A stretch of DNA of 64,000 nt from a virus. Of the stretch, positions 9,815 to 46,492 are shown one piece after another. The DNA lies in IMG/VR virus record IMGVR_UViG_3300035145_003993, positions 124,001 to 188,000 of that record. One strand, written 5' to 3'. Under the pieces are notes generated by a model, which saw only the letters and a program-made list of their open reading frames with translations, did not search any database and had not been told where the DNA came from. The translations under genes were made by a program, and so were the position numbers. The number at the start of each line of letters is the position of its first letter. Position 1 is the first letter of the stretch.

Positions 9815-10990
9815 TCAGTATGAATATAAATATAACTTATCTTTGATCTTTTGTTGATTATCATGTGCTTGTTTTCTACTTAATCCTTTTTTAATACTTT
9901 CAGACATGATTCTTTGTGAATCTACAATATCTTCCATTAATTTACAATGACTTTCAGCATAATCTGTGATAAGATTAATATTTTTAATTACGTATTCTAA
10001 CCTTTTAATAGTAAAACATACAATATGAGCCGCATCTTTAAAAATAATTCTTTCTGAGGATGAGTGTGAAATATCTCTTTCAAGAAGTGTTGTACAGTTT
10101 TCAATTGCTGTTTGAAAATAAGATTTATATAACCTTGTAAGACCACAAATATTTTCTGTTAAGATAGGATTTTTTTTATGTGGCATTGCACTTGATCCTT
10201 TTTGCTTGGCTCTAAAAGGTTCAGCCATTTCATTTATTCCATCTAAACTGTAAATTCTTATATCATAAGAGATTTTTTCAATTGCAAGTACGAGCTGTAG
10301 TATGCCGTAAAAATAATCTAAGTAATGTTGTCTTGGAATAATTTGTGATGAAATAACAGGTTTAAGATCAAGTTGTTCTAAAGCTTTATGTTCACATTCA
10401 ACTGTATTAAAATAGTAATTCCCGGTAGCACCACTAAGTTTTCCTAAGCTTATTTTATCTTTAGATTCAAGTACTGAGTCATATCCTTTTCTCAAAAGAT
10501 GCAGCCAACGATATATTATATCATAATAAGTTTGTATTTCTGCAGCTTTTCCATGTGTTCTAGCAAGTATTCTGTTTTTCGATTCATCAGATTGTAACAG
10601 ATTTGACAAATGAAATATTAAACTACTTGCATAATCTAACACCACTTGTAGACTTTCTTTACACATTATTGATAAAGATGTATCAAGTATATCTGAAGAC
10701 GTTAAACCGTAATGAATCCATCTACCACTCTTGTCTGGAATAGACTCTTCTAACATTTGGACAAATGCTTGGACGTCATGATTAGTTTCTTCTTCTATTT
10801 CTTTCCAACGATTAATATTGATTTTAGCATTTTCTTTAATTACGTTGAATTCATCAGATGTAATTGTTGGATGAGTTATATTGTCTAATTGAGATTCAAG
10901 ATGAGCTAATTCTACTTTTAGCCAAGTGTTTAATTTATTTTCTGTTTTCCAAATATCATAAATTTCTTGAACTTTATATCTTGGTATCAT
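9815..10990 (-). CDS. purB: Adenylosuccinate lyase
   Basis: Cleaves adenylosuccinate to AMP and fumarate, the last step from IMP to AMP. The fumarase/lyase signature GSSAMPHKKNP is present at about residues 264-274, after the conserved TSSDILDTS region (about 97-105) and the catalytic-His context ARTHGKAAEI (about 143). The length of 391 aa is slightly short for PurB (about 430-450) but all signature regions are present. It acts directly after PurA, whose gene lies upstream in the same operon. The upstream 66-aa gene overlaps it by 4 bases. Confidence 0.92.
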   Translation of the reverse strand: MIPRYKVQEIYDIWKTENKLNTWLKVELAHLESQLDNITHPTITSDEFNVIKENAKININRWKEIEEETNHDVQAFVQMLEESIPDKSGRWIHYGLTSSDILDTSLSIMCKESLQVVLDYASSLIFHLSNLLQSDESKNRILARTHGKAAEIQTYYDIIYRWLHLLRKGYDSVLESKDKISLGKLSGATGNYYFNTVECEHKALEQLDLKPVISSQIIPRQHYLDYFYGILQLVLAIEKISYDIRIYSLDGINEMAEPFRAKQKGSSAMPHKKNPILTENICGLTRLYKSYFQTAIENCTTLLERDISHSSSERIIFKDAAHIVCFTIKRLEYVIKNINLITDYAESHCKLMEDIVDSQRIMSESIKKGLSRKQAHDNQQKIKDKLYLYSY

Positions 10991-11187
10991 TTTTCCTCTT
11001 TCGTTATTTTTTCTAGAAAGTCTGTAGGGATTTGTACTATTTCTTTATTTAATAAGATTTTAGATAGCGTTTTGCTTTCTTGATAAGAAGAATTTTTTCC
11101 ATAAGATATAAAAATCCCAACATCACATCTACTGTTTGAAAACTTATTTGTATTAAGAACAAGATCACCTTTAGTTAAGATGCCCAA
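10987..11187 (-). CDS. Small hypothetical protein between purA and purB, 66 aa
   Basis: Starts at TTG 11187 inside the purA 3' end, with GAGGAG 8 bases upstream, and overlaps purB by 4 bases. Translation is therefore coupled on both sides. A short strand-rich protein (ILTKGDLVLNT, DVGIFISYG, EIVQIP), probably an SH3/KOW-like barrel. I see no enzymatic motif. Whether it affects purine synthesis is unknown. Confidence 0.6.
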   Translation of the reverse strand: MGILTKGDLVLNTNKFSNSRCDVGIFISYGKNSSYQESKTLSKILLNKEIVQIPTDFLEKITKEEK

Positions 11188-12371
11188 ACTATTTCTCCTC
11201 TTTTAGGACCAGTTGTAAAAGATATACGTTTTACACCAGTGTGGATTTCTATTGTATTTAATAATTCTTTAAATCCAGGATCAGTTGTTTTAACGCTGTT
11301 AATTCTAGTCATCGAATAGTTTCTTCCGTGTAAGAAGAAAGCAGGTTTCTCTATATGTGTCATCACGTCTGTTTTAACAACACACAAATGATCTACTCCA
11401 TTTTGTATAATAGCTAATTTAACTTCGTCTAAATCTAACCAACCACACTGTCTAGGACGCCCAGTTGTCGCACCAAACTCTTGACCAACTTCAGCTAATA
11501 TCTTTTCTTGACCATCTGTAATGATACTAGGAAAATTACCGCTACCTACCTTAGTTTTGTAAGATTTAATTACTCCTATTACTTCATCGATTTGCTTATG
11601 ATTTAATCCTGTAGAGTTGATTGCTCCACCTACAGAAGGTGAAGATGATGTAACGTCTGGATAGTTATCTGAAAATATGTTAAGGCCACTTCCTTGTGCA
11701 CCTTCTAAAAGAATATTATAATCTTTTTTATAATATTCGTGAAGAACATTTTCGTCACTTAGTTGATACATTCGCAAGATTGAAACCATATTTTCATATT
11801 CAGAAATCCAAGAATTAAATAGATCAAAGTCAGGTTTTAAGTCTTCTAAACTTTCACCGTCTTGTGCTCTTCTTTCTTGTAAGTCATAAAACCTTGATTG
11901 AATTTTAATGAGAGACTGTTCAGGCATATTTACAAAATCTTTAACCAAAATAGAGTCCCGAGCGTAAAAATCAGAGTATGCAGGACCAATTCCTTTTGCA
12001 GTCGTGCCTAGTCTTTTCTGATATTTGAGTCGATCAATTATTTTATGAGTTGGCTCAATTATAGGACAATATCCCGAAACTGAAAGATTTGAACCAGGTT
12101 TTACATTTAAGTCTGTTACTTCTTTGCAAAAGTCTTCTACATCTATAACACATCCTCTTGAAATAATGTTAATAACTTCTTTTGTTAAAACACCTACAGG
12201 AAGAATGTGTGTAACAAACTTATTACCTTTTCTATCGTAAACTGTATGACCAGCATTCCCTCCTCCTTGAAACCTTACAACGACGTCAGCCCAAGTTTGA
12301 ACTAAATCATCAACTACTCTACCTTTACCTTCGTCTCCATGTTGAAGACCTAAAACTAATTTTACTGGCAT
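11175..12371 (-). CDS. purA: Adenylosuccinate synthetase
   Basis: Joins IMP and aspartate using GTP. The N-terminal loop LGLQHGDEGKGR keeps the catalytic Asp of PurA, and GGGNAGHTV keeps the catalytic His. LGTTAKGIGPAY, FGATTGRPRQCGW and a C-terminal FTTGPKRGE follow in order. The length of 398 aa is near the family norm (about 430). The GDEGKG loop argues against PurZ, the 2-aminoadenine enzyme, where Ser replaces this Asp. It lies 3 bases from guaB and feeds PurB. Confidence 0.93.
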   Translation of the reverse strand: MPVKLVLGLQHGDEGKGRVVDDLVQTWADVVVRFQGGGNAGHTVYDRKGNKFVTHILPVGVLTKEVINIISRGCVIDVEDFCKEVTDLNVKPGSNLSVSGYCPIIEPTHKIIDRLKYQKRLGTTAKGIGPAYSDFYARDSILVKDFVNMPEQSLIKIQSRFYDLQERRAQDGESLEDLKPDFDLFNSWISEYENMVSILRMYQLSDENVLHEYYKKDYNILLEGAQGSGLNIFSDNYPDVTSSSPSVGGAINSTGLNHKQIDEVIGVIKSYKTKVGSGNFPSIITDGQEKILAEVGQEFGATTGRPRQCGWLDLDEVKLAIIQNGVDHLCVVKTDVMTHIEKPAFFLHGRNYSMTRINSVKTTDPGFKELLNTIEIHTGVKRISFTTGPKRGEIVWAS

Positions 12372-12374
12372 AAT

Positions 12375-13436
12375 TTACTTTCTATTAAAAATATGTGGAT
12401 TACCTTCGATATGTGATGAAGAGCTTTGAACTCTAAAAACTGCATTTTCTCTAAGGTCATTTAAATTTTGAGCTCCGCTGTAAGACATTCCACTTTTAAC
12501 GTTTGACATAATTTCATTTAAAACTTCTTTAACAGATCCTTTAAAAGGTACATAAGAAGAAACGCCTTCAACTGAATTATATGTTCCTTTCCAGTCTTTT
12601 TGCGCTGCTTTAGAAGCCATACCATTATACTTTTTTGTTTTTTCACCTTCTTCGTTAAGAATCACTTCACCAGGTGTTTCTTCAGTTCCACTAAGAATAG
12701 AACCTAACATGACGAAATCTGCACCAGCGGCTAATGATTTAACAATATCACCACTATTTTTAATACCACCATCAGCAATAATATAAGAAGTTTTTTGATC
12801 TAATTTTTGTAACTCTAATTTAGCTTTGTAGCAATCAAGAACAGCTTGAAATGTTGGTATTCCGTGACCTGTTTGGATTCTAGTAGTACAAATACTACCA
12901 CTTCCGACCGAAGATCTTATTGCGTGAGCTCCAGCTTGAGTTAATCTTTTATATGCATGACCTGTTGCAATATTACCAGCAATTACAAACAAATGATCAT
13001 ATTCACTTCTGATAAACTCGATAGCATTTTCCATAAGTACATGATCACCATGTGCAATATCAATACAGACAATATTTAAATCATTTTTTACTAATTCAGA
13101 TAATCTTTCTTTATAATCTCCTGATGCTCCTATCGCTGCTGATTTGTAAAGATTATTATTTACTTTTGATAAAAGATTTACTTGATGATCTATAGAATTA
13201 TACCGATGTATAATTCCTAATCCACCTTGATCTATCATAGCATTAGACATATCATATTCTGTTACTGTAGACATAGGCGAACTAATAATTGGTATATTAA
13301 ACACTAAATCTTTTTTATTTTTATTTGTTGATACTTTAACAGATGTATCTATATTTTTCCTTGTTTTAAGGTTAGAATATTGTGGTTCTAAAATTACATC
13401 ATCAAAACTTAAAACTTTTTTATTTATAACTTTCAT
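12375..13436 (-). CDS. guaB: IMP dehydrogenase / GMP reductase family protein
   Basis: TIM-barrel enzyme with the catalytic-Cys loop GSGSICTTR at about residue 174, the N-terminal [13 protein letters not shown] and [10 protein letters not shown] motifs, and the phosphate-binding [11 protein letters not shown] and GADFVMLGS regions. A flap-like segment ([12 protein letters not shown]) and a later [11 protein letters not shown] follow. No CBS domains are present, so regulation by adenine nucleotides through CBS is absent. IMPDH (IMP to XMP) is favoured over GMP reductase by the flap form, but the two families are close. First gene of the operon, under the promoter at 13459. Confidence 0.87.
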
Positions 13437-13458
13437 TCATACCTCTTTAGTCTTAAAC

Positions 13459-13487
13459 ACTATAATAAATAAAATTTCTATTTACAC
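13459..13487 (-). promoter_or_regulatory. Promoter GTGTAAAT-N15-TATAGT for the purine operon
   Basis: Minus strand: GTGTAAAT (13487-13480), 15-base spacer, TATAGT (13464-13459), 23 bases before the guaB ATG. The next gene starts 3 bases after each stop, so one transcript probably covers guaB, purA, the 66-aa gene and purB. Confidence 0.78.
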
Positions 13488-13494
13488 CAAAGAA

Positions 13495-14415
13495 TTACAT
13501 ATTAGTTAAAAAATCTTTTCTATATTTTAATAATGCTTTTTCTTTTGCTTTAGACTCTAACACTATATCAACTGTTTTCCCACAGCTGTTAAAAGGTTTA
13601 TAGTAATAGTTCGAATGTGCCGCTGCAGATCTTATTGATGGATCTTCAAATTCTTTTTTTCCGTTAGAATGATGACAAGTAGGTCTTATACTCTTTGGCC
13701 AAGAATCGTAAGCCATTTCGAAAGATTCTTGATAAGAAGCATCTTGAGGCCCTAATGAATAGTGATGAGAATCAAAAACGATTGGAACTTTTATTTTTTT
13801 ATAAATATTTTCATAAAGAAATTTTGCACTAAACATTGAAGGTCTATCATCATTTTCAACAGTTAGCCTTGATTGAACTGAAGGTGTGAGTTTTTTAAAA
13901 TTATTAATAAAGTTATTTGCAGCTAATTGTAAATCTCCACCACAAGAAGATCCTAAATGAATATTAATTTTCGACCAATGATTTTGATCTAAACCCATTA
14001 AATCGAATAACTCACCATGCATTTCTAAATCAACAATACAATTTTTTACTACATTTTCTTTTTCAGATGCTAAGCAATTAAATTGACCAGGATGAAAAGA
14101 AACTCTTTGATTAATAACTTTTGTATAATTACCTGCCATTTTAAGATAATGACAAATTTCTTCATAATCTGGTAAATCTTTAAGATTATATTCACTAGCC
14201 CATGGAGTTAAACAAGAAGAAATCCTAAAAACTTCAATATTATTTTTATAATTCCAATTAAAAATTGGAAGTAAGTCTTTAACATTTTGAAGAACAATTT
14301 TTGAAACGTATGGTAAACCTTTTTTTAAAAAGGTAGCTTTTCTCATTGTTCTAGAATTAAATATATCTTTTTCTCTTAATTCCATATTAAGACAAGCATA
14401 TCCAAACCTATTCAT
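13495..14415 (-). CDS. uvsE: UV damage endonuclease
   Basis: Nicks DNA 5' of UV photoproducts and other lesions, starting excision repair without UvrABC. The TIM-barrel motifs appear in order: RFGYACLN, FRISSCLTPW, SFHPGQF, NIHLG, LTVENDD, VFDSHHY and TCHHSNG, giving the His/Asp/Glu metal site. Length is 306 aa from the ATG at 14415, chosen because GAAGGA lies upstream. A longer in-frame TTG start at 14466 would run through this RBS and is rejected. It has its own promoter. Together with the photolyase and Nei genes it forms a repair set. Confidence 0.92.
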   Translation of the reverse strand: MNRFGYACLNMELREKDIFNSRTMRKATFLKKGLPYVSKIVLQNVKDLLPIFNWNYKNNIEVFRISSCLTPWASEYNLKDLPDYEEICHYLKMAGNYTKVINQRVSFHPGQFNCLASEKENVVKNCIVDLEMHGELFDLMGLDQNHWSKINIHLGSSCGGDLQLAANNFINNFKKLTPSVQSRLTVENDDRPSMFSAKFLYENIYKKIKVPIVFDSHHYSLGPQDASYQESFEMAYDSWPKSIRPTCHHSNGKKEFEDPSIRSAAAHSNYYYKPFNSCGKTVDIVLESKAKEKALLKYRKDFLTNM

Positions 14416-14457
14416 AATAAATGTTCCTTCGTTTAATAAAAATTTGAATTTTTTTAT

Positions 14458-14487
14458 ATTATACAAAAAAAAATTTATTATTTACAC
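14458..14487 (-). promoter_or_regulatory. Promoter GTGTAAAT-N16-TATAAT for uvsE
   Basis: Minus strand: GTGTAAAT (14487-14480) and TATAAT (14463-14458) with a 16-base spacer that contains nine consecutive T. It is the only strong site with 16 rather than 15 bases, perhaps because of homopolymer slippage. Confidence 0.75.
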
Positions 14488-14496
14488 TAATTTTTA

Positions 14497-15564
14497 TTAA
14501 GGTTCTTCGTATATTTTTTTATCATATACAGGGTGATTATAAGATAAATCTAAAGCTTTAATACTCTTAGGACTAAGATTGTTATTCCTAAGATCAGCTT
14601 TATCGATTCCAACATTAGCCAAACTAAAGTCATGATATAAATTTTCTTTTGTGTGATTCACTAATCTATTAAGATCTTCGTATGTATTTAATAAAGATAA
14701 ATCTGATTCGTAATTAGGATTAAGATTATCAAACATGAAATATTCTGGATTTACATAATCTATAGTTCTTTTTTCTTTAATATTTTCAATCACGTCTATA
14801 AGTAATTCGTAATTAACTACATTTGTTGGAATCATAGAAAATCTAAATCTTTCTTCAATAAACTCTACTAAATATTTTAAAAAGTCGTCTGAAGCTCTGA
14901 CAAATCCTTCTGTATTATTTTGTAATTTAAAAATCGAACTTAATGTAGGAAAAATTTTCTTAATATCAGAAACAGAAAGACTTGAATCGAAGAAAGGAAC
15001 TTCGTTTTCATCAACACCATATATACGTTCAAGTTTTTCTGTAATGATCCATTCTGGATGAGGATCTAGATCGTATAAATAAGTTTTAGTAAAAAGTTGT
15101 GAAGATCCTTTTCCATACTGGCCTCGAGACACATTTAATTCTTTTAAATTAGAAATAGCACCTGCTTTATCCATGGATGCTTTTAATACAATATTATCAA
15201 CGTCGTTGATGTTAAAAACATATCTTTCCGCACCTTCAGCTATAAAATCTAATTCAAGTTCAGAAATTCCATATTTTTCAAGATAATATTGTCTATCTCT
15301 TAATCTATCTTCTCGATTGAATTCTAAATCCGGAATATTTTTTGTCTGTGAAAGAAGTAATAGTGTGTGTCCAAACTCATAAAAAGTATCTTGGCGTTTT
15401 TCATTTCCTTTATGCCAGTTTGAATATTCTGGGTCTAGAACTTCATTTTTTATCAACTTTAAATTTTCAGAAAGATTTTGTATAATACTATCATCTCTCA
15501 TATTAAGATCTTCATTTATATATTCTTTCCAAAGATTTATAAATACACTTTTATTATATATCAT
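14497..15564 (-). CDS. Kinase-fold protein with capsid-leader-like N-terminus
   Basis: 355 aa. Residues 1-18 (MIYNKSVFINLWKEYINE) fit the shared leader ending in I-N-E. From about residue 105 the sequence has marks of a protein-kinase/aminoglycoside-kinase fold: AEGAERYVF (glycine-loop position), IVLKAS (ATP-anchoring Lys at about 128), a hinge WIITEKL, a catalytic loop YHDFSLANVGI (Asp 312, Asn 317) and a metal-binding position KALDLSY (Asp 339). Substrate unknown. If the leader works as in T4, the enzyme would be packaged and injected. A late-type TATAAATA lies 32 bases upstream. Kinase assignment is moderately sure; activity is untested. Confidence 0.6.
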   Translation of the reverse strand: MIYNKSVFINLWKEYINEDLNMRDDSIIQNLSENLKLIKNEVLDPEYSNWHKGNEKRQDTFYEFGHTLLLLSQTKNIPDLEFNREDRLRDRQYYLEKYGISELELDFIAEGAERYVFNINDVDNIVLKASMDKAGAISNLKELNVSRGQYGKGSSQLFTKTYLYDLDPHPEWIITEKLERIYGVDENEVPFFDSSLSVSDIKKIFPTLSSIFKLQNNTEGFVRASDDFLKYLVEFIEERFRFSMIPTNVVNYELLIDVIENIKEKRTIDYVNPEYFMFDNLNPNYESDLSLLNTYEDLNRLVNHTKENLYHDFSLANVGIDKADLRNNNLSPKSIKALDLSYNHPVYDKKIYEEP

Positions 15565-15595: not shown

Positions 15596-15603
15596 TATTT
15601 ATA
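15596..15603 (-). promoter_or_regulatory. Late-type promoter element TATAAATA
   Basis: Minus-strand TATAAATA (15603-15596) matches the T4 late promoter core. It lies 32 bases upstream of the kinase-fold gene, with RBS AAAAGGA in between. Single short motif, so moderate support only. Confidence 0.5.
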
Positions 15604-15619: not shown

Positions 15620-15904
15620 ATGCTTCCATTTAAAGAAAAAATTATCGAAGAAAATGAAAATTTTATACTAGTTCAAAGAAACTTTATGTCAATGATGTCA
15701 GAAGAAGAATTAAATTGGCATAAGGATAAGGAAGAAAGAGAAGTATTTTTAGTTGAAGGCGATGGTTGGTATTTACAAATGGAAAATGAAATCCCTGTTT
15801 TAATGCAGAAAGGATCTGTTTTTAAAATACCTAAAGAAACATGGCATCGAATAATTAATAAAAACGGCACAAATTTAATAATCAATGTGAGAAAATATAA
15901 ATGA
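15620..15904 (+). CDS. Small cupin-fold protein, 94 aa
   Basis: Single conserved cupin barrel. Motif 1 is W-H-K-D-x3-R-E-V-F-L-V-E-G (about residues 33-47, His and Glu as possible metal ligands). Motif 2 is GSVFKIPKETWHRI (about 68-81, with a His). Cupins bind metals or small ligands; no specific reaction can be assigned. It starts a plus-strand run and overlaps the next gene by 4 bases (ATGA), so the two are co-translated. RBS AAAGAGAT is 7 bases upstream. Confidence 0.72.
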   Translation: MLPFKEKIIEENENFILVQRNFMSMMSEEELNWHKDKEEREVFLVEGDGWYLQMENEIPVLMQKGSVFKIPKETWHRIINKNGTNLIINVRKYK

Positions 15905-16479
15905 GTTTTAATCTTTTAAAAGAAATGATAAAAGAAATTATTTTAGTTGAATCAAATAAACCTTCAAAAGAATTAGAAAAATCTAAGTATGCTTTACTTA
16001 ATGGTGAAAAAGTAGAGATTATTGCTGCTGATGGACCTGGTGAGTATTCGATTGTTAGAAAGAAAAATTCTGATAAGGGTGAAGATAAAGAAGAATTTGC
16101 TTTAATGAAAGATCTTAAACCTTTAAAAAACGTAAACGAAAGAAAAGATCCTAAAGTAGGAACAGGGAAAAAACCAAAAGGAAGTGACAGAAGATTATAT
16201 ACTGACGAAAATCCAAATGACACAGTAAGAGTAAAGTTTAGAACTGCTTCAGATATTAGAAAAACTTTGTCAAAAAAATCTTTTAAATCAAAATCTCACG
16301 CTAGACAGTCTCAAATTATTAATTTAATACATCAAAGAGTTAGAGCTGCTTATAAAAACGCTAAAGATCCTAAAGTAAAAGCTCGTCTTAAAAGGGCATA
16401 CGAATATGCATGTGAAAGAAAAGAAGCATCAAAAAGAAAAACTTTAAGAATTAAAAAGAAAAAGCGAGAATTAAATTGA
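15901..16479 (+). CDS. Lysine-rich probable virion protein with leader, 192 aa
   Basis: Residues 1-17 (MSFNLLKEMIKEIILVE) are the amphipathic leader ending L-V-E, followed by Ser. The middle is charged and lysine-rich. The last 80 residues have the phage-family pattern RRLYTDENPNDTVRVKF...RQSQIINLIHQRVRAAYKNAKD and end in a very basic tail. Such small basic proteins with YTDEDPNDTV-like motifs are known from large phages without assigned function. Together these suggest a packaged DNA-associated internal protein. It overlaps its neighbours by 4 bases on each side. Confidence 0.65.
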   Translation: MSFNLLKEMIKEIILVESNKPSKELEKSKYALLNGEKVEIIAADGPGEYSIVRKKNSDKGEDKEEFALMKDLKPLKNVNERKDPKVGTGKKPKGSDRRLYTDENPNDTVRVKFRTASDIRKTLSKKSFKSKSHARQSQIINLIHQRVRAAYKNAKDPKVKARLKRAYEYACERKEASKRKTLRIKKKKRELN

Positions 16480-16739
16480 ATTTTAAATTATTAGAAAACT
16501 TTATAAAAGAAGTAATTTTAGATGAAACTAAAAAGAAAAAATCTAAAAGAAAAAAGAAGAAAAAAAGACCTGGAAAAAAAGAGTATTATAAAGGGACTAA
16601 GGATAGTAATAAATCAATGGCTTATGAAATTAATAAGTGTAGTCCAAAAGGAAAACCAAAAGGTTGGAAAGCTCCTAAATCTTGTTATGATTATTGGGAT
16701 GCAGATAAAAAATACGACAAATCAAAAGGTAAAAAATGA
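16476..16739 (+). CDS. Very basic small protein with leader, 87 aa
   Basis: Starts at TTG 16476 in a TTGA overlap with the previous stop, with GCGAGA upstream. Residues 1-17 (MNFKLLENFIKEVILDE) are the leader ending L-D-E. The mature part begins with a Lys/Arg run (KKKKSKRKKKKKRPGKK) and then KEYYKGTKDSN and SCYDYWDADKKY. The composition suits a DNA-condensing internal head protein. The KKKKSKRKKK block follows the leader directly, as in the next gene, so the two are probably paralogues at the N-terminus. Confidence 0.65.
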   Translation: MNFKLLENFIKEVILDETKKKKSKRKKKKKRPGKKEYYKGTKDSNKSMAYEINKCSPKGKPKGWKAPKSCYDYWDADKKYDKSKGKK

Positions 16740-17077
16740 AAAACTTAATTATTTTAGAAAACTTTATAAAAGAAATAATTTTAGACGAAGTTAAAAAGAA
16801 AAAATCTAAAAGAAAAAAGAAGGAGAATTCTAAAAAATTATCTGAAAAGATTAAAACAACTTTAAGAAAAAAGGCAAAAGATTCAAATATGCCATTAGGT
16901 GCTTTAACTTCTGTATATAAAAAAGGATTAGCAGCTTGGCTAACAGGACATAGACAAGGAATTCCTCAACATCAATGGGCAATGGCAAGAGTTAATAGTT
17001 TTATTAGAGGAGGAAAAACTAGAAAAGTTGACAAAGCCGAATGGAAAAAGGTTCAGAATTTTAGAAAGAAGAAGTAA
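16736..17077 (+). CDS. DUF5824-like basic protein with leader, 113 aa
   Basis: Leader residues 1-18 (MKNLIILENFIKEIILDE) ending L-D-E, then the same KKKKSKRKKK block as the previous gene. The C-terminal 65 residues match a known phage domain: PLGALTSVYKKGLAAWLTG, HRQGIPQHQWAMARVNSFI and a GGKTRK tail. I place it in the DUF5824-type family from memory. Function unknown; the context suggests a packaged basic protein. Start by ATGA overlap with the gene upstream. Confidence 0.68.
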   Translation: MKNLIILENFIKEIILDEVKKKKSKRKKKENSKKLSEKIKTTLRKKAKDSNMPLGALTSVYKKGLAAWLTGHRQGIPQHQWAMARVNSFIRGGKTRKVDKAEWKKVQNFRKKK

Positions 17078-17082
17078 AATAA

Positions 17083-17706
17083 ATGAAAAATTTATTGTTA
17101 GAAACAAATATAATCTCAGAAGGATTAAGATTTCATTTAATTGAAAATATAGGTGTTGAAAATAATATATATAGACCTGGTTCAATAAAATATTTTAATC
17201 TTTTTAGAGAAGTTAGAGACTTAAATAAAATAGGTTTATATAATCTTAGTTTAAAAGAAAAATACTATATTAATGAAACAGATATAGGTGAATGGGGATT
17301 TTATGGAAACAATTTAGTTCCTTTAGATTATCCTATTTTAGAAGGAGATGAGTCTTTAAAATCTAGTATTCCTGTTGAAATATTAAACGAAAAAAAGAAG
17401 AAAAAACCAAAGAAAAAAGGAAACTTCTATAAAGGAAAAAAAGTTCAATTAAATAAACCAAAAAGAGGTGGAAGAAAAAAATATTATGTATACGTCAGAA
17501 ACCCAGAAACAGGAAATATTAAAAAAGTAGAATGGGGAGCTAAAGGTATGTCTGTTGGTATTCATGATGAAGCAAGAAGAAAATCATTTGCAGCTCGTCA
17601 CAGATGTCATTTAACAAAAGATAAAACTACAGCAAGTTATTGGGCATGTAGAACGGGAAGATATCCGCATTTAACTGGCGGGAAAAAGAAATATACTTGG
17701 TGGTAA
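17083..17706 (+). CDS. Basic probable virion protein with short leader, 207 aa
   Basis: Residues 1-13 (MKNLLLETNIISE) form a short leader ending I-S-E. About 100 non-repetitive residues follow, then a lysine-rich linker near 134-150. The C-terminal domain carries YYVYVRNPETGNIKKVEWG, RKSFAARHRCHLTKDKTTASYWACR and a final YTWW. Two Cys and a His cluster could bind zinc. This C-terminal domain is familiar from hypothetical proteins of T4-like marine phages; no function is known. Last of the leader-bearing plus-strand run; its stop is 1 base from a convergent gene. Confidence 0.62.
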   Translation: MKNLLLETNIISEGLRFHLIENIGVENNIYRPGSIKYFNLFREVRDLNKIGLYNLSLKEKYYINETDIGEWGFYGNNLVPLDYPILEGDESLKSSIPVEILNEKKKKKPKKKGNFYKGKKVQLNKPKRGGRKKYYVYVRNPETGNIKKVEWGAKGMSVGIHDEARRKSFAARHRCHLTKDKTTASYWACRTGRYPHLTGGKKKYTWW

Positions 17707-17707
17707 T

Positions 17708-18196
17708 TTATTCTTTGTCATATCCAACAAAATGTACACCTTTGAAATGATCTTTTAAAAATGAATTTAGTTTTTTATTCATATCGAAAGATTCAATAGG
17801 TTCATCATTTTTTTCATTTTGTATGTCTTTCCAAACATATGTTAAAAAATCTTCTTCTAGTTTATTGTCTAATATTTGTTGAATCTCTTTGTTAATTCTA
17901 AAGTTATCTAAAAAACTATTAGTCTTTTTTCCTTTTTTTGAAAAATTCCACATACCTAGTAGTATGTCTCCTACATTAGTAACAGTATCAACACCAGGTA
18001 ATACGCCTGCTATTGTTTTTGCTATTTTAAAAACTTGTTTATTTTTATTTTTTAGTTTTGCATTAGCTAAAAGAGCTCTTAAGTCTCCGTAAGTTTTTAT
18101 GTCTTCTATATTTTTAACTTTAAAATTAACTTTATTTTCTTCATTGATTTTTTGTATTTCAAGTCTTATATAGTTTTCTAATATATTTTTTTTCAT
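17708..18196 (-). CDS. Leader-bearing probable virion-internal protein, 162 aa
   Basis: The leader MKKNILENYIRLEIQKINE (residues 1-19) ends I-N-E. The rest follows a pattern seen in phage internal proteins: GDLRALLANAK, then VFKIAKTIAGVLPGVDTVTN (a glycine-containing hydrophobic helix, possibly membrane-active), then LLGMWNF and DNFRINKEIQQILDNKLEEDFL. Convergent with the plus-strand run. Its promoter is probably the palindromic TATTTATAAATA 20 bases upstream. Function unknown. Confidence 0.62.
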   Translation of the reverse strand: MKKNILENYIRLEIQKINEENKVNFKVKNIEDIKTYGDLRALLANAKLKNKNKQVFKIAKTIAGVLPGVDTVTNVGDILLGMWNFSKKGKKTNSFLDNFRINKEIQQILDNKLEEDFLTYVWKDIQNEKNDEPIESFDMNKKLNSFLKDHFKGVHFVGYDKE

Positions 18197-18615: not shown

Positions 18616-19604
18616 AATATAGTTTAAAAGATCAATATAAAAGTTTGTTAAAAGAAGAACTTGCAATTGTAAAAAGATTAAGTCAAAATAATAAAACAGA
18701 ACTTTTCGATGTCGATCTATTTAAAAATGGTAATATTAAAGGTAAAAAAGTTGAAATATCAGATGAAGATAAAAATCTTTTAAAAATATATAATGATTAT
18801 TGTTCTGACTCTGATCTTAAATTAATTAATTTTATTAAAAATAACAAAGATAATATAAAATTTCGAATCAACATAAATGACATGAATGACAATAATATAG
18901 TGAATTATCTTAATCAAAATTTTAGTGAAACAATAAATTGGAATCCAAATAAAGTAAAAGATAAAGGCAGAGGAGAAGTTTCATTACATTTAGCATTTAA
19001 TTCTGATTTAAACTTTAAAGAGCCTGATTTTGTTTCTCACGATAATAAAAGAAAATTTTCTGTTAAATCATTTATAACAAACCAAGGAAACATTACTAAT
19101 GTTAGGTCTTCAAAAGACAATAGATTTATAGAAATATACGATAATAATAAAGAAATCAAATCTATATTTGATAATCAAAATTGGAACAACCTATTTTCAA
19201 TAACATCAGATTTTATAAAACAAAGTAGTAAAACTTATAATCCAATAGAATTTAAAAAAACAATTGAACATTTTGTTATAGAAAAAGATTTTTCAAAAGA
19301 AGAAATAATTTTAAAACTTAAAAAAATAAAAGAATTTTTAAACGAAATAAAAATAGAGTTAACAAAAGATCATGGTTCTGAATGTATTATTGGTATTGAC
19401 AAGAATAAACAATTTTTTATAGTTAATAGAGAAAATGCTATCGAAAAATTAGGTATATACAGAATTAATGGTAATGAAATTACTTACTATCATACAGATG
19501 ATACTAGAAGACTTACTTTTTCTAAGGTTATAGATATACTAATTAACGAAGTAAATCAACTTAAAGAGTCAAAGTTTAAAAGCGTATATAAACATTTATT
19601 TTAA
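18612..19604 (+). CDS. Leader-bearing protein of unknown function, 330 aa
   Basis: Start chosen at ATG 18612, overlapping the nuclease stop (ATGA); an in-frame TTG at 18597 is rejected. Residues 1-15 (MKYSLKDQYKSLLKE) fit the leader ending L-K-E. The middle contains GEVSLHLAFNSDL...EPDFVSHDNKRKFSVKSF, an alternating-strand region with conserved-looking Asp, His and Lys. It looks like a nuclease-type PD-(D/E)xK layout (E...D..S.K), but I cannot confirm this. The C-terminus has HGSECIIGIDKNKQFFIV. Co-translated with an SNase-like enzyme. Confidence 0.55.
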   Translation: MKYSLKDQYKSLLKEELAIVKRLSQNNKTELFDVDLFKNGNIKGKKVEISDEDKNLLKIYNDYCSDSDLKLINFIKNNKDNIKFRININDMNDNNIVNYLNQNFSETINWNPNKVKDKGRGEVSLHLAFNSDLNFKEPDFVSHDNKRKFSVKSFITNQGNITNVRSSKDNRFIEIYDNNKEIKSIFDNQNWNNLFSITSDFIKQSSKTYNPIEFKKTIEHFVIEKDFSKEEIILKLKKIKEFLNEIKIELTKDHGSECIIGIDKNKQFFIVNRENAIEKLGIYRINGNEITYYHTDDTRRLTFSKVIDILINEVNQLKESKFKSVYKHLF

Positions 19605-19961
19605 AAGTCCCATATCTTTAAGATATTTTTCTGTAACTTTTCTATCTTTATCCCACGTTGTTAAGCCTTTTTTATTAAACCATTCTTTTTCAAAGTCATG
19701 CCATTCCATGTATTGTTCTTCTGGATGACTTCCGTTTAATCTTTTTTCTTTTTTTAAGTTTTCATACAAAAGCCTAATAAGAACTTTTTCTGCAATTTCT
19801 TGAATATCTTCATTTGCATATTTTGCTCTTACTGCAGAATCTGCTTTAGATTTTGATGTGTGACAAGATATTTTTTTATTACTATTCTTTTTAGTGATAA
19901 TATACTTACCTTTTTTACCTTGTGAGTTTTTGCATTTTCTTTTTTTAACTTTATAAGGCAT
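19596..19961 (-). CDS. Basic phage protein, 121 aa
   Basis: The lysine-rich N-terminus MPYKVKKRKCKNSQGKKGKY has two Cys and an IITKK strand, then SCHTSKSKADSAVRAKYAN, as in small MPYKVKG-type phage proteins. An amphipathic helix (IQEIAEKVLIRLLYENLKKE) follows and resembles the leader placed internally. The end is ...HDFEKEWFNKKGL. Its stop overlaps the convergent 330-aa gene by 9 bases. Probably virion-associated; function unknown. Confidence 0.55.
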   Translation of the reverse strand: MPYKVKKRKCKNSQGKKGKYIITKKNSNKKISCHTSKSKADSAVRAKYANEDIQEIAEKVLIRLLYENLKKEKRLNGSHPEEQYMEWHDFEKEWFNKKGLTTWDKDRKVTEKYLKDMGLLK

Positions 19962-35600: not shown

Positions 35601-35774
35601 TCCATTAGTTAAATTTAAAGATCTAACTAAACATTTGAATTCTTCAAAAAGAACTTTATTTTTATTTAAATCACTCTCGCTTAATCTTGAAAGAGCATAA
35701 AACTTTCTTTGATAATCTTTGTTTTTAAAAGAAAGAAGTTTATTAACTCTATATTTTAGTTTGTTATTCGTCAT
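32640..35774 (-). CDS. Very large acidic structural-type protein, 1044 aa
   Basis: The largest single intact gene here. It starts MTNNKLKYRVNKLLSFKNKD, which is basic and amphipathic but has no x-Glu site at the usual place. Acidic, Asp/Glu/Ser-rich linkers (about 140-215 and 430-470) separate helical domains. Motifs include SYGQFASGAGVRQLAQKAW and WIIMSIEVYLTLESQSN. The C-terminus is basic. It lies 1 base from a leader-bearing gene and 16 bases before the PCD-like gene. No enzymatic motif seen. Probably a virion core or ejection protein, by context and size. Confidence 0.55.
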   Translation of the reverse strand: MTNNKLKYRVNKLLSFKNKDYQRKFYALSRLSESDLNKNKVLFEEFKCLVRSLNLTNGDLPNEKYIFEFLKNNITNDFIKEIKESIDLKYSKSIRDFDSLINEELDKVNYVNKELDLKLENILIKSIEDKIDLLESRTSRRRRRSLDNIEGPSQEELEMIQQQLDDEFGSEDLDSVQQKKDEEDFSEIDLDDLPDSDLKPAPSLSQPVESIYKKVKSKEQKRFSKGPSNNKIAKALGFTGTGKYVAGQKSAVLQPWDQLVVYVSNKLKNSGVSQENDLSLLAKRKLWIIMSIEVYLTLESQSNMMLGISDSEKDRMISSLDKAQKLNLKNAVSSFRRSVGLGKSLSSEEIRSIIVDVKEELSRGDFDLESDLIREQVLLRLWSRSGSSRNKSIQELKQELDIMYPLNQEYTADFDLEPRLSDDELEKLKQQNIEFDKRISDDPDQDDNFYIEEEINVTKELEDYSSKNRNLSLTVFELQKYMKQISDDIKRLNDLYKKSTERVNPDIFNPIEEDEFGNIINIPDTIPAEDLSEEEENEIKEILERLSYKDKINIINVDKKRKFYRDLYDNYASIDDVIKKTQEHVSKFGLDKKENLTDVDISHMSYGQFASGAGVRQLAQKAWSQELFYSCNPDEKARIYSAAADRWTERLVKLDLIDDKSFVRVPSKNEDEADVAISSSQLKQLELQGKYKRSKKLEDVSDYFSEISKILTDTKLLQRYFDEARDDSVAQEISEKINSIKILSDDDEASYNELLKDLSKNDKGFSSYLVLEASLGNQSGFSLYVIGLLDNFYKKKIQGRTKNSIIKATKEYFDTHYGKDILAPGLSPSSPRIEQIKKDEGQNIFVSIANVVQKLSGLGSSGSKGISKSSAKSTRDSQRDYFLNPGKGYLIGKVEKLNSNRDEDDQLKSFFGGEFNRKDVEKLLDDMFSPNGIIGSVYEDLKILTKTTADELINHIYSMSDSDIDESIIKAFASSEFKNRTDFDVLIPKVFDKIGKDSKEALENYKELYGSLLIGKDFADYLDSEFGLETIKLPKTRKSRKKTK

Positions 35775-36148
35775 TATTTTTGACCTTTATTAATAATTTG
35801 TGTTGCTGATTTCCAAATTTTTTCTGCTAAATCATCTGAAATGTCTTTATTATCATCTAATATTGATATCATAGCAGAAGATAACTCAACAGATTTCGGG
35901 ACATAATTTTTATCTCTTACATTATGATTTTTTTTTAACATTGATACAGAGACAAAGTCATCTGCTGTAAGAGGAGTATTTAATTCTAAGTCTAGTTCTT
36001 TTTGATCTCCGTTTAATTTAGATCCTGTAGTATCAAACATTGTTGTTCGACTGCTTGTAAATCCATCTGGAAACATTTCTTTTATGCTATTTTCAAACAA
36101 AATGTTTTTAACAATATCTCTAAGATCTTTTTTTGTCAAGTTACTCAT
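35774..36148 (-). CDS. Leader-bearing hypothetical protein, 124 aa
   Basis: The leader MSNLTKKDLRDIVKNILFE (residues 1-19) ends L-F-E. The mature part contains MFPDGFTSSRTTMFDTTGSK and a helical C-terminus (DDLAEKIWKSATQII). It overlaps the 1044-aa gene by 1 base (TAATG-type). Probably a virion-internal protein; family not recognised. Confidence 0.58.
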   Translation of the reverse strand: MSNLTKKDLRDIVKNILFENSIKEMFPDGFTSSRTTMFDTTGSKLNGDQKELDLELNTPLTADDFVSVSMLKKNHNVRDKNYVPKSVELSSAMISILDDNKDISDDLAEKIWKSATQIINKGQK

Positions 36149-39275: not shown

Positions 39276-39752
39276 ATGTCTTATTTGTTATTAGAAAATT
39301 ATATTAAATCTATTATAGAAAAAAATACAATTAAAGAACTACATGTTTTTGATTTTGATATGACTTTATACAATCATAATAAAAAAGATTGGTTTGAAGA
39401 TGTCATGTTAAATTTAAAAAAATCTTTAAAAGATCCAAGTGTAAGAGTTATTTTATGCACAGCAAGAGAAAAAAGCGAAAATTTTATATTAAAAACTGAG
39501 AAGTTGCTTTCTACACGTAAAATGTCTCTTGAAGACTTTAATGAGTGTTATTTTAAATCAATACATAGAAAAGAAAAAACTCCGATTTATAAATCTAATG
39601 TCATTTTAGATGAAGTTAGTTCTAACACTAATATTGTAAAAGTAAAGTTTTGGGATGATCGTGAAGATACTCTTAATCAAGTTAAAAAAGATTTAAAAAA
39701 ATATAACGAAAATATAATTTATATTCCTGTTAATCCTTTAAAAATTGCATAA
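39276..39752 (+). CDS. HAD-superfamily phosphatase with capsid-type leader
   Basis: The leader MSYLLLENYIKSIIE (residues 1-15) ends I-I-E and is almost the same as in neighbouring basic proteins. The HAD core follows: motif I VFDFDMTLY (nucleophile Asp 26, Asp 28), motif II ILCTARE and motif IV FWDDRED. This short HAD form resembles the phage Swiss-Army-Knife RNA-repair or polynucleotide-phosphatase types. The substrate could be a nucleic acid end. The leader implies virion packaging. Plus strand, divergent from dCMP deaminase; its stop overlaps the convergent next gene by 15 bases. Confidence 0.7.
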   Translation: MSYLLLENYIKSIIEKNTIKELHVFDFDMTLYNHNKKDWFEDVMLNLKKSLKDPSVRVILCTAREKSENFILKTEKLLSTRKMSLEDFNECYFKSIHRKEKTPIYKSNVILDEVSSNTNIVKVKFWDDREDTLNQVKKDLKKYNENIIYIPVNPLKIA

Positions 39753-40592
39753 ATCTTTTTTCCAAGATAATATTTTTCTTTCAAGTTTTAAACTTTTATC
39801 TTTTTCATTTGCGTCTTTCAAAGTTATTCTATTCCAAGGGTATAATTTTCCTGTATTAGAAGAAGTAGATATTGTTTCTATTCCTTTAATAGAATATAAA
39901 TAAATTTTACTGTCATCAATTTCAACGTTTCTTTTAAATTTTAAAACTTTTGGTGGTCTTCCCATTTCAGACATTTCACTATCTTGTATTAATAATTCTT
40001 TACTAGTCCAAGGAATTGCAAATTTAATTGCGTCTTCTTTATAAGGAGTTACATAAGAGTATTTATTTAAGCAATTAAATCTACTTTGACTTCCATGATA
40101 ATATACTCTTTTCGAAATTTCAGGTATATAATATTGAGGTTTTACTTTAAAAGGAATAAAAATATGGATTTCTTTTTTATCATCGGGACAAGAAAACCAT
40201 AGTTTGTAAGCATCTGCAAATCCTTGTATTCCTTTACAGAATATTTTTTCTTTTCTCGCAACGAATAAAAATAAACATTTTTCAATTTCATTAGGTAAAA
40301 GTTTAAAGTAATATGAATATTCTCTTCTCTGTAATATTTGATCAGGGCTAGATTCGTTTGTTGCATTAAAAAAAGAAGCTCTTAGAAAAGATGTATTTTT
40401 TTCATGATAAGGAAAATATTTTCTAATCTCTTTTTCAGCTAATTTAAGTCTATGTCCTTCTATGACTTTATCGTATCTTAAAGGTCTTAAAACTTTTTTA
40501 TATTTTTTGTCTTTTGAAATAAACCAAATATCTGATGTTAGAAACTTTGTACCTAAGTTTTTAATTTCAATAGGGACATTAATTTTTTTCAT
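39738..40592 (-). CDS. Possible ADP-ribosyltransferase-fold protein, 284 aa
   Basis: The C-terminal half has VYYHGSQSRFNCLNKYSYVT, then PYKEDAIKFAIPW, which resembles the YHGS...YVTP...A.FA core of ADP-ribosyltransferase-like toxins and phage ARTs. A possible catalytic Glu lies in ELLIQDSEMSEMG. The N-terminal 120 residues are basic with no known domain. No leader or signal is present. This is a pattern-level guess; alternatives are an uncharacterised phage enzyme. Stop overlaps the convergent HAD gene. Confidence 0.4.
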   Translation of the reverse strand: MKKINVPIEIKNLGTKFLTSDIWFISKDKKYKKVLRPLRYDKVIEGHRLKLAEKEIRKYFPYHEKNTSFLRASFFNATNESSPDQILQRREYSYYFKLLPNEIEKCLFLFVARKEKIFCKGIQGFADAYKLWFSCPDDKKEIHIFIPFKVKPQYYIPEISKRVYYHGSQSRFNCLNKYSYVTPYKEDAIKFAIPWTSKELLIQDSEMSEMGRPPKVLKFKRNVEIDDSKIYLYSIKGIETISTSSNTGKLYPWNRITLKDANEKDKSLKLERKILSWKKDLCNF

Positions 40593-43155: not shown

Positions 43156-43365
43156 ATGTACCAAATTTTAGAAAATTATATACAACTTGTATTTGAAAAC
43201 GAAAAAAATAAAAACAAAACGTTTAAAGATATACTTAATAGTTTAAAAAATAGTCAAAATCCTAAAAAGGTACTAAGAAATACAGATCCTATAGAAAGAA
43301 ATACAGATCAAATAGGATTTGACCAATTAATTAAAAAATCTAGTAATTCTAATCAAACGCGTTAA
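43156..43365 (+). CDS. Small leader-bearing basic protein, 69 aa
   Basis: Residues 1-14 (MYQILENYIQLVFE) match the leader closely and end V-F-E. The mature 55 residues are basic and polar with a near-repeat (RNTDPIERNTDQIG). Clear RBS AAAGGAAAAAC. The stop overlaps the convergent dnaE-C gene by 17 bases. Its size recalls the T4 internal proteins that are packaged and injected. Function unknown. Confidence 0.65.
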   Translation: MYQILENYIQLVFENEKNKNKTFKDILNSLKNSQNPKKVLRNTDPIERNTDQIGFDQLIKKSSNSNQTR

Positions 43366-46300
43366 TCTTTTTAAGCTTAGCTAAACTTGATGACATACCC
43401 CAGTTAACATCATTACTAATATCAGCCAACCAAGTTGTAAATTCAATTTCACCTTCCATATCTCCCCATACTCGAAGCCATCCACTTCGATTATCAATAT
43501 CGACGCATTTCCATCTCATAAATGATTTACCGTTTTTAGTTGTTTTTCTAATAACTTCTGTAACAGTAAACCATCCAATTCCACGCTCACCTTTTGGTAT
43601 ATCAAAAATACTATTGATTTGCTTCTGTTTTAGTTTTTTAACTAAGCTTGGTGGAAACAATAAATCGTCATTTGCATCATTACTGAGTTCAAAATAGTTT
43701 TTAATTTTAGTACTTCTTGACCAATCACTAACAACTCTGTATTGTGAGATTAACTTTTCGACAATTGGAATGATTTCTTCACCATTTTTATTTGCTTTTT
43801 TAATAGCAGTTTTTGTCATTCCAAAGCTTCCTTTCTTTAAAATCATATAATTATCCAAGATTAAATCATGCATTTGTTTGTGATTGTCTAGTGTTCCATC
43901 TTGAAATTCTTGGAGTGACTTAAATGCTTCCATCTTTGTTAGTGATGAAAAAGCTGTTTTATTCATTTTTGAATGTTTCCATTCTCCTTCTTTATTGTAA
44001 AAAAGATCTTGTAAATTATTATATGGTCTATTTACAAATATTTCTTCAACAGCTTTGTCACCTACTCCTTTAAGAGATGTCAACGGAGGAACAAACGATT
44101 TTAAATCTTCTGAATATTCCCATTGAGATCCTGAGTGATTTATATCAATTGCTGATATGTCATATCCTAGTGCCTTAATTTCTGCAATTACTTTGGACAT
44201 TCCTTTAGGATTACCATTTTCTGATTGTAAAACAGTTGCTAGCCAGTCTGTTTCGTAGTGTGTATGAAGCCACGCAGCGTAATATGAGTCGATTGCATAA
44301 GAAACAGCATGACTTTTATTGAAACCGTAAACAGCAAAACCTTCTATTTCTTCCCAAAGTTTTTTAGATATATGTTCGGGTACATCATTAATTTCTTTTG
44401 CACCTTTAATAAACTTTTCTCTTGCAATTGTTTTTTCATCTTTTTTATTTCCCATTGTTGCGAGATTATTCTTAACAAGGGTTTTTCTCAGCTTATCAGC
44501 TTCACCTGGATCAAAACCTGATAGTTTTTGTGCAAGTAACATAAATTGCTCTTGAAATACAACGTAAGAAAATGTTGGTCCTAAAACTTCTTCGATAATC
44601 GGATGATCGTATTTAATTTGTTCTGCGTTTTGTTTAGATTTAACATATTTTTTATGAACATTAGCTTTAAGAGGTCCAGGACGATAAATAGCAGTTAAAG
44701 CTGCTAATTCTTCAATACTTTCTGGTTTAGCTTCTAATGAAAAGTTTCTAGCTCCTGTATTTGTAAATTGGAATATTCCTACAAATCTTCCATCATGATA
44801 TACATGCTTCCAGACATCTTGATCATTTTGTTCGTGAAATCTACAATTTAAATGTTTATCAAAGAATTTTTTAGCATCACTAAATTGTGGATTATTATTA
44901 CCCTCCTTTTTAAGGATTCTATAAATACAATTTTCAATATCTTTTAATAAGGATAAACCTAAGAAATCAAATTTAATAAAACCATTATCTTCTAAGTTTC
45001 TAAAATTTAATCCTTCTGACCATGGTGTTTGTAATTCTCCTCTTACACCTACGATAGGCATAGTTGTTTCTAAATGTTCAGGATCAGCTACTAACACACC
45101 CCCTGCATGACGACCAATTGCTCTATTCTGCATAAACAAAGAAGCAATATGAGTTTCAACTTCAGGATATCTTTCCATAAAATCTTTATATTCTGGAGAA
45201 TACTTTTTACAATCTTCATGCTTAAGAACAAAAACAGATTTTTCTTGATCGTCACCTTTTGCCATTTTCATAACTTGATCGTGAAGAGGACCAGTTACTT
45301 TATTTACTTCATCATACGGAATATCATAAAACTTAGATATATCTTTAATAAGAGACTTAAGCTTTAAAGTATTAAAGTTAGAAACAGGAATAACAGCATC
45401 GTTTCCATATAATTCTTTTGCAGCATTAATTAACTCATCACGATCACCAGCATCTGTATCAATATCAGGCCATGAAACCCTATGCCTTCCTAAGAATCTT
45501 GCCCAAAGAAGATCGTATGGAAGAGGGTCAACTTGTGTAATGCCTAATAAATAATTAACTAAAGAGCCAGCTCCTGATCCTCTTCCTGGCCCTAATAAAG
45601 TTTTCTTTTCAGCCTTCTTAAAAATTTCATACATCGTAATAAAATATGCTTCGTGACCAAGATACTTTATATCTGATAATTCTTCTTTAGCACGATCAAC
45701 ATAAACTTGGTTTGTATGAAAACCATGGCTAACGAGTGAATCTTTAACTAAAGAAGATAAGTGTTGAAAAGGAGTTTTATTTGGAACGTTTATTGTAGGT
45801 AGTTTAACTCCTGTATCAATCCAAGTATCTTCAAATTCATTCCAAACGATATCATGAGTTCGATTAATAGCATCACGAACTAATTCTTCATTACCTTTAT
45901 AAAATTCATAAGTAGGATATGAATCAAGAAATTCTTCCCACATTTGAGAAGCATTTTTTGGATATAATTCACACTTAAGATCTTCAAATTCTGGAAGAGA
46001 AAGATTATCTCTTTTTCCTAACCAACCAAGTTTTTTATATAATTCTCGAGCTTGCCATTTTTCATTTGAAGGGTAATGTGAATCTGCTGTACAAATAAGA
46101 GGAATACCTGTTAATTTATGGTGTTCTATAAGATAATCATTAACAGTATGCTGTTTTTCTAATTTATTAAACTGTAATTCAAGTTTAAAATTGTTTTCTC
46201 CAACACAAGAAACAAACCTATCTGTTAGATTTAATAATTCTTTCTGAATTTGTTCACGTGATTGATTATGAACTTCACCTCTTAAAATACGATTACTATA

Positions 46301-46444
46301 AATACCACCAAGGCAGTTGTGCACTAAAATATTGTTAGCAAAAAAATTGTGATTACCTTCAACAGTAATGTCGTAAACGTCAGAAGTCTCATCTATTTCT
46401 TCAATAATTTCAACTTCAATAAATTTTGTTTGAATGTCTTTCAA
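43349..46444 (-). CDS. dnaE: DNA polymerase III alpha, C-terminal part with C-intein
   Basis: Main replicative polymerase, second fragment. Residues 1-43 are a C-terminal split-intein half (DVYDITVEGNHNFFANN, then ILVHN). The following Cys 44 starts the extein LGGIYSNRI, which continues the PHP domain of the first fragment. Polymerase motifs are present: GPGRGSGAGSLVNYLLGI, PDIDTDAGD (catalytic Asp pair), FDFLGL, AIYRPGPLK and YGFNKSHAVSYA. The OB region is at the C-terminus. Spliced with the 47464 product it gives about 1191 aa. Start is TTG with AAAAAGGA upstream; promoter at 46464. Confidence 0.93.
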   Translation of the reverse strand: MKDIQTKFIEVEIIEEIDETSDVYDITVEGNHNFFANNILVHNCLGGIYSNRILRGEVHNQSREQIQKELLNLTDRFVSCVGENNFKLELQFNKLEKQHTVNDYLIEHHKLTGIPLICTADSHYPSNEKWQARELYKKLGWLGKRDNLSLPEFEDLKCELYPKNASQMWEEFLDSYPTYEFYKGNEELVRDAINRTHDIVWNEFEDTWIDTGVKLPTINVPNKTPFQHLSSLVKDSLVSHGFHTNQVYVDRAKEELSDIKYLGHEAYFITMYEIFKKAEKKTLLGPGRGSGAGSLVNYLLGITQVDPLPYDLLWARFLGRHRVSWPDIDTDAGDRDELINAAKELYGNDAVIPVSNFNTLKLKSLIKDISKFYDIPYDEVNKVTGPLHDQVMKMAKGDDQEKSVFVLKHEDCKKYSPEYKDFMERYPEVETHIASLFMQNRAIGRHAGGVLVADPEHLETTMPIVGVRGELQTPWSEGLNFRNLEDNGFIKFDFLGLSLLKDIENCIYRILKKEGNNNPQFSDAKKFFDKHLNCRFHEQNDQDVWKHVYHDGRFVGIFQFTNTGARNFSLEAKPESIEELAALTAIYRPGPLKANVHKKYVKSKQNAEQIKYDHPIIEEVLGPTFSYVVFQEQFMLLAQKLSGFDPGEADKLRKTLVKNNLATMGNKKDEKTIAREKFIKGAKEINDVPEHISKKLWEEIEGFAVYGFNKSHAVSYAIDSYYAAWLHTHYETDWLATVLQSENGNPKGMSKVIAEIKALGYDISAIDINHSGSQWEYSEDLKSFVPPLTSLKGVGDKAVEEIFVNRPYNNLQDLFYNKEGEWKHSKMNKTAFSSLTKMEAFKSLQEFQDGTLDNHKQMHDLILDNYMILKKGSFGMTKTAIKKANKNGEEIIPIVEKLISQYRVVSDWSRSTKIKNYFELSNDANDDLLFPPSLVKKLKQKQINSIFDIPKGERGIGWFTVTEVIRKTTKNGKSFMRWKCVDIDNRSGWLRVWGDMEGEIEFTTWLADISNDVNWGMSSSLAKLKKINAFD
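46316..46444 (-). other. C-terminal half of split intein (DnaE)
   Basis: 43 residues ending in the block F/G motif VHN before the +1 Cys. The final Asn and preceding His are the residues used in cyclisation. They match the N-half at 47467-47772, so protein trans-splicing is expected. Confidence 0.9.
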
Positions 46445-46463: not shown

Positions 46464-46492
46464 AATATAATACAATTAGTTAATATTTACAC
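46464..46492 (-). promoter_or_regulatory. Promoter GTGTAAAT-N15-TATATT for dnaE-C
   Basis: Minus strand: GTGTAAAT (46492-46485), 15-base spacer, TATATT (46469-46464), 19 bases before the dnaE-C TTG. Its box overlaps the 3' end of the endonuclease gene, so the second polymerase fragment can be transcribed independently of the first. Confidence 0.72.

Follow-up and report, generated by a model that had tools for sequence, protein, structure and literature searches.

Does an uncultivated large phage carry a kinase in its head and deliver it to the host together with its DNA? The question is raised by an open reading frame (ORF) at positions 14497-15564, minus strand, of the window analyzed here, a stretch of 64,000 nucleotides that covers bases 124001-188000 of the 211 kb IMG/VR virus record IMGVR_UViG_3300035145_003993 (G+C content 22-30% in 4 kb blocks). 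The ORF starts with ATG, with AAAGGA lying upstream, and encodes a 355-residue protein in which an earlier note on this DNA had seen kinase motifs behind a capsid leader ending I-N-E. We put at roughly 70% the probability that this protein is a phosphotransferase of the protein-kinase/aminoglycoside phosphotransferase (APH) superfamily that sits behind an 18-residue capsid-targeting leader, is packaged, cleaved and ejected with the DNA, and phosphorylates host targets.

Relatives of the protein

Searches with the single sequence are empty. The protein has no named match in Pfam or NCBIfam (in Pfam nothing rises above noise) and none in PADLOC; single-protein queries find no match in IMG/VR (pattern scan), INPHARED (tblastn) or the PDB (phmmer), and a scan of genome contigs finds no cellular relatives. 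Homologues were reached only through sister phages located via their DNA polymerase, the whole records of which were then searched. The sister phage G014 (239 kb record) encodes a full-length orthologue with 43-44% identity in a conserved gene order. Profile searches identify a paralogue in the phage of the window itself (G000:83807-84790), two further paralogues in G014, and members in G012, G022 and G023; a later scan contributes two additional members. Cultured phages are represented by XacN1 ORF170 and then by the Alishewanella phages Slicko01 and Slickus01. The resulting alignment has 15 members, the window protein and 14 phage homologues with 20-44% identity to it.

PHROG 4301, labeled "unknown function", matches the window protein weakly (E 0.066). 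Its matches to the homologues range from 3e-6 to 6e-43, with values of 3.1e-6 for the G014 orthologue, 5e-17 for Slicko01, 4e-28 for XacN1 ORF170, 7e-38 for RaK2 ORF356 and 6e-43 for CBB_444. Since the homologues match clearly, we assign the window protein to the PHROG 4301 family as a probable divergent member.

Kinase fold and catalytic residues

The strings quoted in the earlier note are all present and in kinase order: WKEYINE/D (residues 12-19; here and below a slash marks a cleavage site, known or predicted), GAERYVF, IVLKAS (Lys128), YHDFSLANVGI (Asp312 and Asn317) and ALDLSY (Asp339). Lys128, Asp312, Asn317, Asp339, Gly111, Arg114 and Trp172 are identical in 15 of 15 aligned members, and the α-C residue Glu142 in 14. 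The D-x4-N spacing matches the catalytic loop, and the LD(L/F/Y) after it the DFG motif, of kinases and APH enzymes. Judged from the alignment, the strings are not due to chance, because their key residues are invariant in it. The catalytic Asp and Lys, on whose conservation the note had staked its kinase assignment, are kept in every homologue, and structure prediction yields the kinase/APH fold on which it equally depended, in two members.

The models were computed with AlphaFold2 from a ten-sequence alignment. That of the window protein has a predicted local distance difference test score (pLDDT) of 73.8 and a predicted template modeling score (pTM) of 0.76, and that of a compact homologue (L051:2185-3000) has values of 82.0 and 0.78. 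With the two models, Foldseek places APH(2'') phosphotransferases first in the PDB (E 6.6e-4 and 2.1e-4, probability 0.99-1.0), followed by protein kinases, isocitrate dehydrogenase (IDH) kinase/phosphatase and the minimal effector kinase NleH2. In a second PDB search, 50 of 50 among the matches listed belong to the protein-kinase/APH superfamily, and the matches among viral models are uncharacterized phage proteins and T7-type protein kinases. In 14 of the 15 members, no more than 3-20 residues follow the DFG-type Asp, so the usual C-terminal subdomain (activation segment, helices αF-αI) is missing. The kinase fold is thus supported by modeling and sequence, and the protein is best described as a C-terminally minimal member of the superfamily.

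A comparable reduction is found in the kinase domains of polyvalent proteins (PF18762), which have lost the C-terminal subdomain with the active site intact and have a predicted effector role in phage-host conflict (PMC5512222). The window kinase likewise keeps its active site without that subdomain, but it is a single-domain, leader-tagged protein and not a multidomain polyvalent one; it has no match to PF18762 at E<=10, nor does any other member of the family match. Across the genome no PF18762 match is seen either, a weak result because the controls of that search also gave no matches.

The N-terminal leader and its predicted processing

Residues 1-20 of the model have a pLDDT of about 47, and in both modeled members the leader is of low confidence and separate from the kinase domain. 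Its terminal residue, Glu18, is aligned in 15 of 15 members; in one of them (L053) the N-terminus is different and has no leader-like score, so the placement of its Glu reflects a choice made in aligning. The leader is modular and common to unrelated proteins. In two sister phages the profile search matches positions 1-70 alone; the protein there is unrelated and bears MNNKNFKMLIKEWKNFLNES. N-termini of this type also occur on further unrelated proteins near kinase genes.

A loose count of (L/I)xE gives 18 of 100 against 9%, which is weak, and a held-out profile was therefore used instead. Its motif, derived de novo from 304 dereplicated sister-phage N-termini with all kinases and this genome excluded, approximates L-L-(K/R)-x-(Y/E)-I-(K/R)-x-(F/I)-L-x-E-(S/E). 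Scores of at least 10 are attained by 13 of the 110 N-termini of this phage, against 1.0 expected from internal segments (13-fold). The kinase ORF itself scores 10.9 (frequency among internal windows 0.0045) and its paralogue 12.0. At a threshold of 8, the motif is found on none of 23 intracellular enzymes and on 15 of the 62 other ORFs of the window (Fisher p 0.005), the enzymes having been assigned by Pfam except for the thymidylate-kinase-like, polymerase and ribonucleotide reductase large-subunit ORFs, which were assigned by eye or PHROG.

The maturation machinery predicted for this phage fits the leader type. It includes a T4 gp21-type prohead protease (Peptidase_S77, PF03420, E 1.5e-29), likewise present in G014, XacN1 and Slicko01, and a gp23-type capsid protein in which VLRE/S coincides, in a sequence alignment, with the FLTE/A site of T4 gp23. 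Rhizobium phage RHph_TM16, which has a leaderless kinase-annotated protein, has no such protease.

The first ten residues of T4 IPIII are sufficient for packaging (PMC9026906), and T4 Alt is cleaved at ITE-6 (PMC5694885). Like Alt and IPI-III, the window kinase has a short N-terminal propeptide ending I/L-x-E, a gp21-type protease in the same phage, and basic leader-bearing neighbors resembling the internal proteins. It differs in having a kinase fold and not that of an ADP-ribosyltransferase, in the length of its leader (about 18 residues vs 6-19), and in that its packaging is a prediction.

Leader-bearing kinases in cultured phages

Packaged phage kinases are not unprecedented, since virions of the T4-like cyanophage S-CREM2 contain an APH/choline kinase (ChoK)-like kinase, gp14, detected by mass spectrometry (MS) with 21 unique peptides; a SAM (S-adenosylmethionine) hydrolase, a cytidylyltransferase and a Cas9-annotated nuclease are also present (PMC10665884). 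The N-terminus of gp14 reads MKRFDAFLTE/E; the SAM hydrolase starts with MKDFDSFLEE and the cytidylyltransferase with MKNFSSFLTE. In the nuclease, RFASFMAE begins at residue 18, a position compatible with a true start downstream of the annotated one. The hydrolase, nuclease and cytidylyltransferase (gp6, gp12 and gp154 of OR473000) are each virion-detected with an F(L/M)xE leader, and gp13, the virion-detected neighbor of gp14, likewise has an FLTE-type leader. The leader of the kinase is not discussed in the available part of PMC10665884. Leaders are over-represented in S-CREM2 virion proteins when tail, baseplate and endolysin proteins are left out (6 of 18 vs 14 of 153, odds ratio (OR) 5.0, p 0.009) and over all proteins (OR 3.0, p 0.047); the test covers about 70% of the genome and its pattern was written after three of the N-termini had been seen, so it is supportive, not blind.

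The virion-detected APH/ChoK-like kinases of S-CREM2 (gp14), S-CRM01, S-TIM5 and S-CBWM1, as described in PMC10665884, resemble the window kinase in superfamily and in belonging to tailed phages, and gp14 shares its leader type. It differs in length (755 residues), in its long N-terminal region and in a sequence that continues past its DLG. A profile of the window-kinase family has no match in the S-CREM2 relatives S-CRM01, S-TIM5 and S-CBWM1.

In Slicko01, eight consecutive genes (L079:13889-19559) all start M-K-I-x-x-L-Y-E-S-L-L-E-E or near it. The kinase (WGH49657.1) forms one end of this run, which includes a polyvalent-type ADP-ribosyltransferase (PF18760, ART-PolyVal, E 2e-11), an enzyme class similar to T4 Alt. 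From its sequence, the run is apparently an injected-effector operon in a cultured phage. For XacN1, the text of the virion proteomics report does not name ORF170, and the band assignments are given in a figure (PMC5852040).

The leader ending I-N-E that the earlier note had recognized is borne out by its modular sharing, the held-out motif, the gp21-type protease, the aligned capsid site and the leader on a published virion kinase.

Proposed mechanism and alternative explanations

The kinase fold, the conserved catalytic residues, the modular leader and the matching protease and capsid-protein site are computational results; from packaging onward, through cleavage and injection to the substrate, the course of events is one that we infer. 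The protein would be made late in infection and docked by its leader in the prohead core, and the gp21-type protease of the phage would cut after Ile-Asn-Glu18. The mature enzyme would be retained in the head, ejected together with the DNA, and would phosphorylate at least one host target in the new host cell before phage gene expression. These targets are probably proteins.

Several observations weigh against this proposal. Superfamily members without a leader exist (CBB_444, CBB_445 and RaK2 ORF356 among the several in PHROG 4301), so packaging would not be a trait of the superfamily as a whole. The P1' residue is Asp here (INE/D) and Ser or Ala in most leader-bearing homologues. Foldseek TM-scores are low, about 0.2-0.3, and the fold match therefore rests on E-value, probability and residue conservation. 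By sequence, the S-CREM2 virion kinase is of a different kinase subfamily, and the S-CREM2 association relies on one loose pattern that also matches 12 proteins undetected in the virion. The phage is uncultivated and, like its close sisters, known here only from its genome, and an injected host-takeover effector is what we infer for it.

That last point also favors a kinase-fold enzyme that is made in the infected cell and left unpackaged, its N-terminal helix being part of the fold or some other localization signal. Phage kinases of the T7 type are active in the cytoplasm. T7 gp0.7, also a phage kinase that acts on host proteins, is made after infection and is not known to be packaged, and T7-type kinases are among the viral fold matches. 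Leaderless homologues point the same way, and CBB_444 and CBB_445 are absent from the CBB virion list (PMC5259590), a weak contrast to the leader-bearing members. We nevertheless consider an unpackaged enzyme unlikely: the leader occurs on unrelated domains, is modeled at low confidence and apart from the kinase domain, is found on none of the 23 intracellular enzymes, and is of the same kind as that on the MS-detected virion kinase.

Two further explanations accept a packaged protein. A small-molecule phosphotransferase of the APH/choline-kinase type, modifying a host metabolite or an antibiotic and not a protein, would agree with APH(2'') enzymes as the nearest solved folds and with the name APH/ChoK-like that the S-CREM2 authors give their virion enzyme (PMC10665884). 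This explanation concerns the substrate alone and has packaging in common with our proposal. We hold it to be possible though doubtful, as the chain ends near the DFG Asp, leaving the APH C-terminal part missing or replaced, and the viral structure matches include phage protein kinases. The missing C-terminal subdomain could also indicate a head-internal structural protein or pseudo-enzyme, with a kinase fold that is dead or acts solely on phage head proteins; the invariance of the phosphotransfer residues at 20-44% identity argues for catalysis, and we regard this as quite improbable.

Genomic neighborhood and other features of the window

Four small to medium ORFs with basic products (15901-17706) lie divergent from the kinase gene; three or more of them carry leaders, and the three measured have net charges of +22 to +26 (Table 1). 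The order of the kinase and basic ORFs is conserved in G014. By analogy, these leader-bearing proteins are reminiscent of the T4 internal proteins. The late-promoter-like box upstream of the kinase carries little weight, because TATAAATA is not enriched across the window (26 vs 21).

Table 1. Positions of the kinase gene, its functional elements and leader-bearing proteins in the window
Feature	Position	Strand	Basis and remarks
Kinase-fold protein with N-terminal leader, PHROG 4301 superfamily	14497..15564	-	355 aa; alignment, AlphaFold2, Foldseek
Predicted capsid-targeting leader, residues 1-18 (MIYNKSVFINLWKEYINE)	15511..15564	-	Predicted gp21-type cleavage after E18; held-out motif score 10.9; Glu18 conserved
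Kinase N-lobe, residues 105-180: Gly-rich loop GAERYVF, beta-3 Lys128, alpha-C Glu142, hinge W172-K177	15025..15252	-	AlphaFold2, alignment
Catalytic loop YHDFSLANVGI (Asp312, Asn317)	14605..14637	-	D312 and N317 invariant 15/15
DFG-equivalent Asp339 (ALDLSY)	14548..14550	-	Invariant 15/15; protein ends 16 residues further on
T4-late-promoter-like box TATAAATA	15596..15603	-	39 nt upstream of kinase ATG; suggestive only
Leader-bearing, strongly basic neighbor, MSFNLLKEMIKEIILVES...	15901..16479	+	Net charge +26; motif score; order conserved in G014
Leader-bearing, lysine-rich small neighbor, MNFKLLENFIKEVILDET...	16476..16739	+	G014 comparison
Leader-bearing basic neighbor, MKNLIILENFIKEIILDE...	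16736..17077	+	Net charge +25; motif score, charge
Basic neighbor with weaker leader, MKNLLLETNIISEG...	17083..17706	+	Net charge +22; charge
Leader-bearing neighbor MKKNILENYIRLEIQKINEEN	17708..18196	-	Motif score
Unrelated protein with same leader type, MSNLTKKDLRDIVKNILFENS	35774..36148	-	Motif score
HAD phosphatase-like protein (PF10307) with same leader type, MSYLLLENYIKSIIE...	39276..39752	+	Motif score, Pfam

The product of 16736-17077 is similar to the C-terminal end of PHROG 3041 (cytidyltransferase, E 2e-9) and also to PHROG 28338; a cytidylyltransferase is likewise a leader-bearing virion protein in S-CREM2. ORF 19596-19961 (121 residues) is the counterpart of the N-terminal region of a 424-residue G014 protein (L032:9203-10477), whose C-terminal part, a kinase domain, it lacks, a domain gain or loss. 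At 39738-40592, HGSxxRF resembles ADP-ribosyltransferase motifs by eye; this ORF has no Pfam support and no leader. A GNAT assignment of the leader proteins L049:3373-3918 and L051:4320-5102, made by eye, has no Pfam support and was rejected.

Elsewhere in the window, a DnaE-type polymerase is split over two ORFs (43349-46444 and 47464-48381). An intein-like N-part closes the upstream half and an intein-like C-part (...NNILVHNC) opens the downstream half, with an endonuclease-like ORF (46476-47426) between them; from its sequence, the arrangement resembles a natural split intein accompanied by a homing gene. The ribonucleotide reductase large-subunit ORF (62866-63927) opens with a stretch resembling the C-terminus of an intein (...FFANNMLVHNC), which points to a likely second intein gene, split or interrupted. 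A purine biosynthesis set (adenylosuccinate lyase, adenylosuccinate synthetase and IMP dehydrogenase) at 9815-14466 adjoins the UV endonuclease UvdE.

Implications

Virion-associated cyanophage kinases are already known, and capsid targeting sequences are classical. What is new is the C-terminally minimal kinase family, its large-phage lineage and its tie to an interchangeable leader; in the open-access literature searched, no paper was found to connect phage kinases with a capsid-targeting leader. Whether a T4-like large-phage lineage delivers minimal PHROG 4301 kinases (up to three paralogues per genome), ADP-ribosyltransferases and other enzymes via one such leader is, in our estimate, evenly balanced. 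If it does, the leader alone would reveal an arsenal of injected effectors from sequence. The proteins that large phages inject in the first minute are mostly unknown, and the usual route to them is virion proteomics of cultured phages; should the leader mark packaged cargo, effector sets could be listed directly from metagenomic genomes. PHROG 4301 would also gain a testable activity, the phosphorylation of host targets in the first minute of infection by a kinase that lacks the usual C-terminal subdomain.
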